DNA of 64,000 nucleotides, taken from assembly GCA_030692515.1 (NCBI GenBank), contig JAUXZS010000016.1:132313-196312 (forward strand). Reading direction: 5' to 3'. A program made the translations under genes and the position numbers. Positions 55,280-60,426 of this stretch are shown one piece after another. The notes under the pieces were generated by a model. The model did no database searches. It was not told where the DNA came from and saw only the letters and a list, made by a program, of their open reading frames with translations. Origin of the DNA: Bacteroidota bacterium (lineage in GTDB: Bacteria > Bacteroidota > Bacteroidia > B-17B0 > Aurantibacillaceae). Positions within the stretch are counted from its first letter, which is position 1; each line of letters starts with the position of its first letter.

Positions 55280-56974
55280 ATGCGTAATTATCACTATTTT
55301 GGGGCAGCCATAATTAAATTGACCTTGAAGAAACCTAAAATACTTCTACTGACTTTTTTATTCAGCAATTTTTATTTTCTATTGGCTCAAAAAGCAGTAA
55401 ACACATCTTTTTTTGATAAAAATGGGGCTCTCTCTACAATTGAAGATGCACTTTATTTTAGAGAAACTACTGATTCTGTTGATTATTATAAATCGTATTA
55501 CTTAATAGATAGTTCCTTATTTTTCTATGGCAAAATTATTTCAGCTAAAGACTCGTCTGACCAAAAAAATCTTTACTCAGGGCTTTGTATTTGGTACTAT
55601 AGTAATGGTAATAAAAAAACCGAAAATAATTATAATGATAAAGGAATTTTTAATGGAACATGTTCGGATTATTTTGAAAATGGAATGCTGAAAAAACAAG
55701 TAGAGTATATTAATGGAAGACTCAAAAATAAAACTTTTACCGAATATAGTTCAAGTGGAGCAGATGCAACAGTTTTCCAAGATGATTTTTATGACAACCG
55801 CTTTAACTGGTTGCTTACCTCAAACGATAACGGATCGGCAAAAATAAAAATTGGTGGTTTAGAATTAATTAGTAAAACTAAAAAAGGTTTTATAAAATTA
55901 TTCCCAAATAAAATTGCAACTAAAAATTATTCCATTGAAACTATTATTAATTCAAATTCTTTATCAAAAATCACAAAAGGAGGGATAATTTTTGGATTTA
56001 AAGACTCAGCAAACTATTATTATTACTTTATTTCGAAAAATCAGTATTATATCGGGTCCTTTAAGGATAATGTGGAAACAAAACATGCTGATGGATTTGT
56101 TTCTCCATTATTAATTGACGGAAATTGGAATAAGCTCAAAGTAATTCGGTTAAAAAATAAATTATTATATAGTATTAATGATGACATCCTATTTTCTGTG
56201 GATGAATCCAACGACGTAGAAAATGGAATAGGTCTTTCCATAAATACATCTGGTATTGTTGTGTTTGACAGATTGATTGTTAGGGAATACCAAAACGATA
56301 AAGTTATTGAGTCCACATATCCAATATTAAAAGGCTTTAACACATACAACATACATAATGATGATTATGGTATCCAAAATTTTTCAACTGGTCTAATTTT
56401 AAACAAAGAGGGGCTTATAATAACCAATGCTTCAAATTTTAATCAATACACGCAAATAATTGTAGAAACATATGTTAATGATTCTATAAAAAAATTCTTT
56501 GCTGATTTAGTGGTTAAAGATCATTTTAATAATCTTGCTATTATTAAAATTAGAAATCCAGAAAATTATTATCTTTCAGAGCCTGCCTATTCATTTTGCG
56601 AAAAAGGATCAGTTGAAATCGAGAGCGACTTGTACTCCATGTATTTTACTAAAGGAGATACTAACGAAAATAAAACAACTCTTATTAAAGGGAAACTAAA
56701 AACTAAAGCCCGTTTTGAAAACTTATCCGCAACTTTTTATTCTTCCTTGAAAACTGAAATAATAACACTCGGCGGGCCAGTTTTTACAGAAGATGGTGAA
56801 TTGCTAGGTATTATTACTGTTCCCGCATTAAAAAACCTTACAACAGCAGTTAAATTAGGTCAAATAGAACAAATTATTTTTAATTCCCGTCGAAACTTTA
56901 AAAAACTAAAAAAACCAGAAAAAAATTCGATATCAGCTATTTCAAGAAACATAGTGCTTATTAAGGTAAGATAG
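55280..56974 (+). CDS. Secreted protein with YwqK/MORN-like, jelly-roll and catalytically dead trypsin-like domains
   Basis: A 564-residue exported protein. The start is ATG 55280, or TTG 55325, which would give a more compact signal peptide beginning KKPKILLLTFLF. Residues about 100-155 contain YwqK/MORN-like repeats (YYSNGNKKTENNYNDKGIFNG; YFENGMLKKQVEYINGRL). Residues 165-350 look like a concanavalin-like sandwich (GGIIFGFKDSANYYYYFIS; NGIGLSINTSG). The last 200 residues track a DegP-like protease: GLILNKEGLIITNASNF, NNLAIIKIRNP and ITLGGPVFTEDGELLGIIT. The positions of His, Asp and Ser hold Ser, Asn and Leu, so peptidase activity is not expected. Monocistronic. Confidence 0.72.
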   Translation: MRNYHYFGAAIIKLTLKKPKILLLTFLFSNFYFLLAQKAVNTSFFDKNGALSTIEDALYFRETTDSVDYYKSYYLIDSSLFFYGKIISAKDSSDQKNLYSGLCIWYYSNGNKKTENNYNDKGIFNGTCSDYFENGMLKKQVEYINGRLKNKTFTEYSSSGADATVFQDDFYDNRFNWLLTSNDNGSAKIKIGGLELISKTKKGFIKLFPNKIATKNYSIETIINSNSLSKITKGGIIFGFKDSANYYYYFISKNQYYIGSFKDNVETKHADGFVSPLLIDGNWNKLKVIRLKNKLLYSINDDILFSVDESNDVENGIGLSINTSGIVVFDRLIVREYQNDKVIESTYPILKGFNTYNIHNDDYGIQNFSTGLILNKEGLIITNASNFNQYTQIIVETYVNDSIKKFFADLVVKDHFNNLAIIKIRNPENYYLSEPAYSFCEKGSVEIESDLYSMYFTKGDTNENKTTLIKGKLKTKARFENLSATFYSSLKTEIITLGGPVFTEDGELLGIITVPALKNLTTAVKLGQIEQIIFNSRRNFKKLKKPEKNSISAISRNIVLIKVR

Positions 56975-57182: not shown

Positions 57183-59537
57183 ATGAAATTTCGTTTACTC
57201 TTACTTTTAAGCTTTTTAGTTTTTAAAATATACAGTCAAGATAAAGCCACCATTAGTGGTTATATAAAAGATTCTAAAAATGGGGAGTCTTTAATTGGCG
57301 CAACTGTATATAAGCAAGGTTCTAATATGGCTGCTTCTGCAAATGAATATGGATTTTTTTCATTGACATTGCCAAAGGGTCAACATGTAATTGTTGTTTC
57401 GTTAATTGGCTACGCCACGTATTCATTTCAGGTAAATCTCGAAAAAAATATTAGTAAAACTTATGAATTATCTGAAGAAGGTAAACAATTAGATGAAGTA
57501 GTAATTACGGGCGAAGCAGCAGATAAAAACATTACAAGTACTGAAATGGGTACAACAAAATTAGACATTAAACAAATAAATAAAATTCCAGCCATGTTTG
57601 GCGAAGTGGATATTGTTCGTTCCATACAATTGCTGCCGGGTGTAACTACTGTTGGTGAAGGCGCGAGTGGCTTTAATGTACGGGGTGGTAATATCGATCA
57701 AAATTTAATACTGTTAGATGAGGCGCCAGTGTATAATTCGTCTCACTTATTTGGTTTTTTCTCGGTGTTTAATCCAGATGCAGTTAAAGACGTAAAATTA
57801 ATTAAAGGAGGAATTCCTGCACAATATGGCGGAAGAGTTTCTTCAATTTTAGATATAAGAATGAAAGAAGGTAATTCTAAAAAATTGACTTTCACCGGAG
57901 GTATTGGTACGGTTTTTAGTCGTTTTAGTATTGAAGCTCCAATAGTAAAAGATAAGGTAAGTTTTATTTTAGCCGGAAGAAGAAGCTACATTGATGCTTT
58001 GGTAAAACCATTTTTAAAAAGCACTAACGCGTTAAAAAAAGCAGATTTTAATTTTTATGATCTAACTGCAAAAATAAATTGGCGTATTGATGATAAAAAC
58101 ACGGTTTTTGCAAGTGGTTATTTAGGAAGAGACGTTTTTGGAAGTACAGGATTTAAATTTAACTGGGGTAACTCAACAACTACTTTGCGCTGGAATCATA
58201 TTTTTAATAGTAAACTTTTCATGAATGTTTCTGCATTTTATAGTAATTACGATTATTTAATAGATTTTAAACAAGAAAGTAATAACCAACAATTTAATTG
58301 GACAAGCAACATCATCAACTACAGTTTTAAACCCGACTTTAGTTATTTTGCCAACAGTAAAAATAAAATTAGATTTGGCGCGCAAGCGTTATTGTATGAT
58401 TTTAAGCCTTACGATGCTACCGGCAAATTTGAAAATACTACTGTCATATTTAAATCCGACAAGCGCTATGGTGTTGAATATTCTGCATATATCAGCAATG
58501 AACAAAAAATAAGGCCACGGTTAACTTTTGAATATGGCGTAAGAGTTAGTATTTACAATTATATTGGAAAAGGAACAGCTTATACATTTAGAGATACTAC
58601 TGCTAATGAAGAGTTACCACTTGAGAGTTCTAAAAAGTATAAGAATGGTGAAATAATAAAAGATTATGTAAACCCTGAGCCTCGCTTCTCTATGAATTAT
58701 GTTATTAATAATTCTAGTTCCATTAAAGCAAGTTATAATAGAATGGCACAATACATTCAGTTAATTAGTAACACGGCAGCAAGCACGCCGTTAGATGTCT
58801 ATACCATTGCATCTAATAATTTAAAACCATTGTTGGCCGACCAAGGAAGCGTAGGCTATTTTAGAAATTTTAAAGATAATATGTACGAAACATCTGTAGA
58901 AGTGTATTACAAATATTTACAAAATCAATTAGATTATATTGATAATGCTAACCTGTTTATTAACCCTACAGTTGAAAACCAATTAGTACAAGGCTTGGGT
59001 AGAGCCTATGGAGCTGAGTTTTACATAAAGAAAACAAAAGGTAAAATTAATGGTTGGATAAGCTACACCTTAAGTAAAACTGAGCGTTTAGTAAGAGGTA
59101 TCAGTAATGATAATTGGTTTTTTAGTCGTTATGATAGAACCCATTGCTTAAATACAGTTTTAAATTATGAAATTGCTAAAAACTGGAGCATTTCAACCAA
59201 CTTCGTTTTCTTAAGCGGAACGCCGGCAACTTTTCCTAATTCAAAAATTACGATTCAAAATTATAATATTCCTTATAACACAGATGGGATAAGAAACAAT
59301 TACAGAATTACACCATATCACAGAATGGATTTAGGGGCAACTTACAATTTCAAGAAAAATGACCAACGTCGCTATAAACAAAGCATCGTGCTAAGCGTAT
59401 ACAATGTTTATAATCGCCGCAATGCTTTTAGCGTTTATTTTAGAACCAAACAAGGCTCTACTTTTGAAACTGAGGCTGTTCGTTTTTCAGTTATTGGCTC
59501 TATAGTTCCTGCAATTACTTATAATTTTAATTTTTAA
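57183..59537 (+). CDS. TonB-dependent receptor with CarboxypepD-reg-like domain
   Basis: A 784-residue outer-membrane receptor. After a signal peptide (LLLLLSFLVFKIYSQ region) comes a carboxypeptidase-regulatory-like domain (ISGYIKDSKNGESLIGATVY to about residue 100), a plug domain (VRSIQLLPGVTTVGEGASGF; NVRGGNIDQNLILLDEAPVY) and a 22-strand-type barrel ending in SIVPAITYNFNF, with the C-terminal aromatic expected of barrel proteins. No SusD gene follows; instead a DUF4249 lipoprotein gene starts 4 nt later. Ligand unknown. Confidence 0.92.
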   Translation: MKFRLLLLLSFLVFKIYSQDKATISGYIKDSKNGESLIGATVYKQGSNMAASANEYGFFSLTLPKGQHVIVVSLIGYATYSFQVNLEKNISKTYELSEEGKQLDEVVITGEAADKNITSTEMGTTKLDIKQINKIPAMFGEVDIVRSIQLLPGVTTVGEGASGFNVRGGNIDQNLILLDEAPVYNSSHLFGFFSVFNPDAVKDVKLIKGGIPAQYGGRVSSILDIRMKEGNSKKLTFTGGIGTVFSRFSIEAPIVKDKVSFILAGRRSYIDALVKPFLKSTNALKKADFNFYDLTAKINWRIDDKNTVFASGYLGRDVFGSTGFKFNWGNSTTTLRWNHIFNSKLFMNVSAFYSNYDYLIDFKQESNNQQFNWTSNIINYSFKPDFSYFANSKNKIRFGAQALLYDFKPYDATGKFENTTVIFKSDKRYGVEYSAYISNEQKIRPRLTFEYGVRVSIYNYIGKGTAYTFRDTTANEELPLESSKKYKNGEIIKDYVNPEPRFSMNYVINNSSSIKASYNRMAQYIQLISNTAASTPLDVYTIASNNLKPLLADQGSVGYFRNFKDNMYETSVEVYYKYLQNQLDYIDNANLFINPTVENQLVQGLGRAYGAEFYIKKTKGKINGWISYTLSKTERLVRGISNDNWFFSRYDRTHCLNTVLNYEIAKNWSISTNFVFLSGTPATFPNSKITIQNYNIPYNTDGIRNNYRITPYHRMDLGATYNFKKNDQRRYKQSIVLSVYNVYNRRNAFSVYFRTKQGSTFETEAVRFSVIGSIVPAITYNFNF

Positions 59538-59541
59538 AATC

Positions 59542-60426
59542 ATGAAAACTATTTTCAAATTTTTATTTATTAGCACGGCATTTTTCGGGATTACTTCATG
59601 CGAAGATGTTGTTCAGATTAAACTAGACGAAGGATCAAAATTATATGTTATTGATGCCTTTGTAAACAATACTCGAAGCAACCAAACAATTAGAGTATTA
59701 ACCAACGATAATTATTTTAGTAATAGAGAAGCGCCTCCCGTTACAAATGCAACAGTAATCTTAAAAGATTTAACTGCAAACAAACAATACAACTTTAACT
59801 ACACGTCAAAAGGAAATTATGTTTTTGCTTTAGCGACAACCGATACAATCTCTAAAATAGGGCATCAATATGAATTAAATGTAATTGTAGATGGTAATAC
59901 TTACACATCTATCTGTCTGCAAAAACGAACAGCTATTTTGGATAGCATTAGCGCAGTATACAATGATGGAACTTCTGGATTTGGACCGCCGAACCCTTCG
60001 TACAACTGTTTTTTATGGGCAAGAGATAAAGTTGATTTAGTTCCGGATTATTACTGGATTAAAACTTTTAAAAACGATACTCTTTTTGATAAACCAAGCG
60101 ACTTAAACACTGCGATTGATGGGACAGGTGGCGAAGTTACAAATGCAGGTGGTGCTGATACATTAGATTTTACCCCGCCAGCAATTTTTTTGGGGTTTAA
60201 TAGTTATAAGTCTGGCGATAAATGTAAAGTTGAAATTCATTCTATTTCTCGAGAAACTAATAATTTTTTATTTCAGGCAGTTGCCCAAATTCAAAATGGC
60301 GGTTTATTTGCAACAACACCCGAAAATGTTAGAACTAACATTACAACACCCTCAGGAGCAAAAACAAAAGCTGTTGGTTGGTTTAATATGGCAACTGTGG
60401 TTTCAAAAACTAAACTAATTCCTTAA
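59542..60426 (+). CDS. DUF4249 lipoprotein
   Basis: A 294-residue lipoprotein. The signal FLFISTAFFGITSCED gives the lipid-bearing Cys, and VVQIKLDEGSKLYVIDAFVNN is the standard opening of the DUF4249 family. VTNATVILKDL and a later F-L-F-Q-A-V-A-Q-I-Q segment follow the family. DUF4249 proteins are usually encoded next to a TonB receptor, as here, and may help it capture its ligand, though this is inference. Likely coupled to the receptor gene. Confidence 0.85.
   Translation: MKTIFKFLFISTAFFGITSCEDVVQIKLDEGSKLYVIDAFVNNTRSNQTIRVLTNDNYFSNREAPPVTNATVILKDLTANKQYNFNYTSKGNYVFALATTDTISKIGHQYELNVIVDGNTYTSICLQKRTAILDSISAVYNDGTSGFGPPNPSYNCFLWARDKVDLVPDYYWIKTFKNDTLFDKPSDLNTAIDGTGGEVTNAGGADTLDFTPPAIFLGFNSYKSGDKCKVEIHSISRETNNFLFQAVAQIQNGGLFATTPENVRTNITTPSGAKTKAVGWFNMATVVSKTKLIP

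Follow-up and report, generated by a model that had tools for sequence, protein, structure and literature searches.

Within the window, i.e. the whole 64,000-nucleotide stretch of DNA analysed here, an open frame encoding 564 amino acids was verified, and the features assigned to it are collected in Table 1. Translation probably starts at the TTG codon at position 55319, since in one orthologue (L004) a TTG is the sole possible start and in another (L003) an ATG occupies the same alignment column. The export proposed for this protein by a first-pass annotation agrees with the signal peptide found here, the core of which is the hydropathy maximum of the protein and falls within a modelled helix (residues 19-35); no lipobox cysteine is present in this signal peptide, and a periplasmic or surface location is predicted. 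The Pfam MORN_2 match to the repeats that follow (E = 6.4e-6) lies slightly below the cut-off, and MORN_2 is matched in 20 of 29 family members (E ≤ 0.01). The beta-sandwich weakly resembles the 3-keto-disaccharide hydrolase type, one family member matching PF06439 below the cut-off (E ~3e-4). The C-terminal tail is also present in intact members of the family, and sequence comparison suggests that the trypsin-like domain and tail form a module joined to differing partners. Five Bacteroidota Trypsin_2 proteins with other N-terminal parts (L022, L023, L025, L029 and L101) carry a similar tail, ..EQ(V/I)K... The gene downstream of the open frame encodes a TonB-dependent receptor with a carboxypeptidase-regulatory domain and is followed by one for a DUF4249 protein (window positions 57183-60426), a synteny kept in the four closest genomes.

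Table 1. Positions in the window of the open frame and of the features assigned to its product.
Feature	Position	Strand	Basis and remarks
Whole open frame	55280..56974	+	Span given by the first-pass annotation, 564 aa; 551 aa if TTG 55319 is the start
Signal peptide (predicted)	55319..55390	+	Hydrophobic core, residues 21-35 (ILLLTFLFSNFYFLL), ending ..LLAQ
MORN_2-type repeats	55571..55753	+	Residues ~98-158; Pfam MORN_2
Beta-sandwich domain	55763..56293	+	Residues ~162-338; all-beta in the model, pLDDT ~90
Disordered linker	56309..56362	+	Residues 344-361; pLDDT < 50
Pseudo-trypsin (HtrA/DegS-like) domain	56375..56890	+	Residues ~366-537; Pfam Trypsin_2, Foldseek, family profile
Ser385, catalytic His position	56432..56434	+	Alignment with intact homologues
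Asn418, catalytic Asp position	56531..56533	+	Alignment with intact homologues
Leu497, catalytic Ser position	56768..56770	+	Alignment with intact homologues
Conserved C-terminal tail	56927..56971	+	SRNIVLIKVR; helix 550-557 and strand 558-563 in the model

Fold and architecture of the protease-like domain

The first-pass annotation had assigned the domain to the trypsin-like, DegP-type proteases, with structure prediction and overlay as the proposed check, and this assignment was upheld. Pfam Trypsin_2 matches residues 370-511 (E = 1.6e-8; 35.8 bits against a curated cut-off of 27.6). An AlphaFold2 model was built from a 29-row alignment (mean pLDDT 83.8), with a pTM of 0.56 that leaves the relative placement of the domains uncertain; in Foldseek searches this model matched the protease domains of DegS and HtrA1 across ~170-190 residues, with TM scores of ~0.65-0.74 (normalised to the protease domains alone) and rmsd values of mostly 2.5-4 Å. 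This structural match identifies the modelled fold as trypsin-like, i.e. a chymotrypsin-like double barrel, and the family profile (alignment A4), when compared with known structures, likewise finds DegP, DegS, DegQ and HtrA1 over the protease region (E down to 4e-25). Receptor-binding domains of large toxins also appeared in the Foldseek list; at a TM of ~0.2 and an rmsd of ~18 Å these were rejected as a chance resemblance involving a jelly-roll beside a second beta domain.

The annotation had further described the joining of this domain to MORN-like repeats and a sandwich as an unusual fusion, a view that did not survive comparison. Full-length alignments and the tree identify MORN_2, sandwich and Trypsin_2 as the standard architecture of a Bacteroidota-wide family, nearly all other members of which are intact, and the window protein conforms to this three-part build along its entire chain. 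In the 87 genomes of the taxonomic family that were searched (the order comprises the same 87 genomes), homologues occur in 7 of 10 genera, and a scan of public genomes located proteins of this build in Flavobacterium, Polaribacter, Profundicola, Paludibacteraceae and other Bacteroidales, as well as in genomes labelled Chitinophaga and Chryseobacterium. A search for related loci returned 45 with a mixed alignment as the query and none with the window protein alone; among the papers that could be searched, none dealt with the MORN_2-sandwich-Trypsin_2 architecture.

Loss of the catalytic triad

The claim that His, Asp and Ser are replaced by Ser, Asn and Leu is borne out by alignment with 48 rows in which the His-Asp-Ser (HDS) triad is intact. 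The window motifs TN-A-S385, N-N418-LAIIKI and T-L497-GGPVF align with TN-x-H, N-D-LAILKI and GN-S-GGPVF of the homologues, across which the Asp motif reads N-D-L(A/S)I and the Ser motif GN-S-GGP; the triad of active HtrA serine proteases is lost at all three sites, and comparison and modelling together predict that the window protein is not catalytic. Because orthologues of other species share the triad loss, it is not a sequencing artefact.

The tree set comprised 57 rows, of which 48 keep HDS, and the tree was calculated from the MORN and sandwich columns only, to keep convergent decay in the protease domain from grouping rows. Eight lost-triad proteins from eight species (L001-L006, L010 and L019) form one clade with 100/100 support, so that in answer to the lineage-wide question raised by the annotation, the loss is common to the whole orthologue clade. 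None of the eight has the His (S, V, E, K, A, E, K and A, in the order given); either N or D occupies the Asp site, and the residue at the Ser site differs among members. L004 and L005 still carry both the Asp and the Ser of the triad, and the His was probably lost first in this clade. Its members are patchily distributed (8 of the 87 genomes of the taxonomic family), and all but one of the eight have an open frame of full length. At L125:8297-10002 (genome G009) an apparent frameshift breaks a clade member into two frames that overlap, and this is either a pseudogene or an assembly error. L021 (genome G063) falls outside the clade on the MORN and sandwich tree and is a second triad loss. Genome G022 carries two tandem lost-triad copies, which a second tree places outside the clade, in a position that long branches make unsure.

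The protease domain is the most conserved part of the intact members (~76% mean identity), whereas in the clade it stands at ~52%, the level of the rest of the protein; a drop of this kind is the expectation when catalysis, and not the fold, is released. Mean identities for the pseudo-trypsin and sandwich domains of the four closest clade members are 52 and 51%, respectively. NG86 estimates of dN/dS for the pseudo-trypsin domain, rough because dS is saturated, are ~0.07-0.28 where computable and resemble those of the other domains, and G371, G378, D401, F406, G498, F502 and G510 are invariant. In rough terms, these values suggest that catalytic constraint is gone and fold constraint kept, with purifying selection acting on the fold.

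A barrel-like gene beside the intact proteases

In the short subfamily (~550 aa), intact members lie directly upstream of a ~270-aa gene on the same strand, mostly at a spacing of -10 to +35 nt; this linkage of a protease with an adjacent barrel-like gene is newly described here. The ~270-aa product has a signal peptide and a C-terminal GYxxGFGF, and its family is matched by neither Pfam nor NCBIfam. The model of this product (mean pLDDT 81.5) contains long antiparallel strands and retrieves mainly outer-membrane barrels from Foldseek, with weak E-values (0.007 and above), making an outer-membrane barrel the likely identity of the modelled protein. Up to three tandem barrel-like copies were observed directly after an intact protease gene (L126:10837-13293, L127:7287-8895 and L041:9650-12106), and a 589-aa exported gene with no Pfam match is often the next after such copies.

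Within the taxonomic family, every genome that has an intact member (13 of 13) carries the barrel-like gene directly downstream of it, and the gene is missing in 8 of 8 genomes that have only lost members of the clade or G063 type; no gene of this kind (A5/A6 family) was found in the window, nor in the window's genome at E ≤ 1e-10. Longer intact relatives (~750 aa) are without the barrel-like gene, and the linkage is therefore a trait of the subfamily. A "perfect" correlation between triad loss and barrel absence was ruled out by G022, which keeps barrel-like genes beside both of its lost-triad copies, and triad loss therefore does not need loss of the barrel gene; with at most three independent pairs, a formal phylogenetic test of the one against the other has no power. 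At L131:3082-7097 of G022 lie two tandem pairs, each of a degenerate-triad sandwich-trypsin gene and a barrel gene; catalysis was lost separately here, and the barrel was kept.

The gene neighbourhoods of the lost copies contained no partner shared clade-wide. Neighbours are common to the four closest species by plain synteny, distant clade members share none of these, and G033 has one other operon in common with G009.

Interpretation and relation to known systems

Since purifying selection appears to act on fold, sandwich and MORN repeats alike, the likeliest account, and one that we consider fairly probable, is that a protease of HtrA-like ancestry now serves, without catalysis, as a binding or structural module, its fold retained by such selection. 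The ancestor would have been an active HtrA-like protease of the trypsin family, with the MORN_2, sandwich and Trypsin_2 build widespread in Bacteroidota. The common ancestor of the window's clade would have lost the catalytic His, whilst the Asp and Ser positions drifted, and in the same clade the gene would have ceased to be trailed by the barrel-like gene of the intact relatives; the chymotrypsin fold, sandwich and MORN repeats would have been retained through purifying selection. A binding role for the window protein is plausible; candidate surfaces for a ligand are the pseudo-active-site face and the sandwich. Weighing against this account are the patchy occurrence of the gene, its lowest conservation among syntenic genes, the frameshift in G009, from which it follows that the gene can be dispensable unless the frameshift is an assembly error, the retention of Asp and Ser in L004 and L005, by which the decay is uneven, and the case of G022, in which the triad is lost and the barrel gene kept.

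Several of these observations would suit a relic, in which the protease domain is decaying and the MORN repeats and sandwich carry the function, the trypsin part being a folded passenger, or in which the whole gene is disappearing. Among the syntenic genes that were compared, the window gene has the lowest conservation (identity 52-53%, against 61-92% for the others), the pseudo-trypsin is the most divergent domain across the clade (minimum pairwise identity 18.6%), one lineage is frameshifted and the barrel partner is gone. However, the intact protein is likewise fast-evolving: in one intact pair the protease domain is 73% and the whole protein 61% identical, against mostly 82-84% for the neighbouring genes. 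The persistence of seven full-length frames across species, in four of which the housekeeping neighbours are 78-89% identical to the window's, also speaks against decay, as do the low dN/dS of the domain (from saturated dS), its invariant residues and the conserved tail, and we regard a relic as unlikely.

The idea that the protein regulates an active protease in trans or serves as its decoy, by analogy with MamO and MamE, draws some support from the two intact-triad Trypsin_2 proteins encoded by the genome (the DegP-like L100 and the 371-aa L101). Of the eight clade genomes, however, G005 alone encodes an intact member of the same family, and there elsewhere in the genome, so that a decoy directed at such a copy is unlikely; the stretches of up to ~10 kb flanking the lost copies on either side contain no other family member, and the idea as a whole seems to us quite improbable. 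That the protein is still an enzyme, its active site rebuilt at another place in the domain, is hard to believe: the Asp and Ser kept by L004 and L005 would favour it, but the domain has no new His or Ser conserved in the clade, D401 is its sole invariant acidic residue in the seven unbroken members, and the oxyanion-loop PGNSGG is unconserved in the clade.

Beyond the proposed conversion of a protease into a non-catalytic module in the window's clade, we tentatively suggest, as a possible if rather doubtful extension, that the short subfamily is an outer-membrane-linked protease with a co-encoded barrel, and that on at least three occasions this protease became a recognition module without catalysis, twice without the barrel and once (in G022) with it. 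If true, the short subfamily would form a natural series on how a protease becomes a binding protein. Active relatives, an inactive clade and two further inactive lineages are all present in one Bacteroidota family, and a barrel-like gene stands beside the active short-subfamily members and is missing in two of the three inactive lineages. This combination allows one to ask directly which targets the active enzyme has, and what survives its death.

Intact MORN_2-sandwich-Trypsin_2 proteins of Bacteroidota (for example L030, L041 and L043) share their architecture from end to end, and the C-terminal tail, with the window protein at ~24-34% identity but, unlike it, retain His, Asp and Ser; intact short-subfamily members are followed by a co-directional outer-membrane-barrel-like gene, which the window protein is without. 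With HtrA, DegS, DegP and DegQ (Trypsin_2, PF13365) the window protease domain has fold and sequence pattern in common. In contrast to these proteases, the window protein is without the triad, MORN_2 repeats and a beta-sandwich precede the domain, and a Pfam scan finds no PDZ domain in a chain that stops shortly past the protease domain.

MamO, a magnetosome protein, is, to our knowledge, the well-studied case of a bacterial pseudoprotease, and few others have an intact sister group for comparison; among documented proteins it is the closest in kind to the window protein. It works with the MamE protease, has a TauE transporter domain and binds metal via a surface di-His site, H148 and H263 (PMC4794232). 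The window protein differs in architecture: Pfam finds no TauE domain, no active member of the family lies close by, and a conserved His pair is lacking, there being no His conserved across the clade in the domain. The likeness lies in an HtrA/trypsin-like domain without catalysis: in MamO, a domain of HtrA type has lost proteolysis and gained metal binding, and among related proteins such losses have occurred independently in several taxa (PMC4794232).
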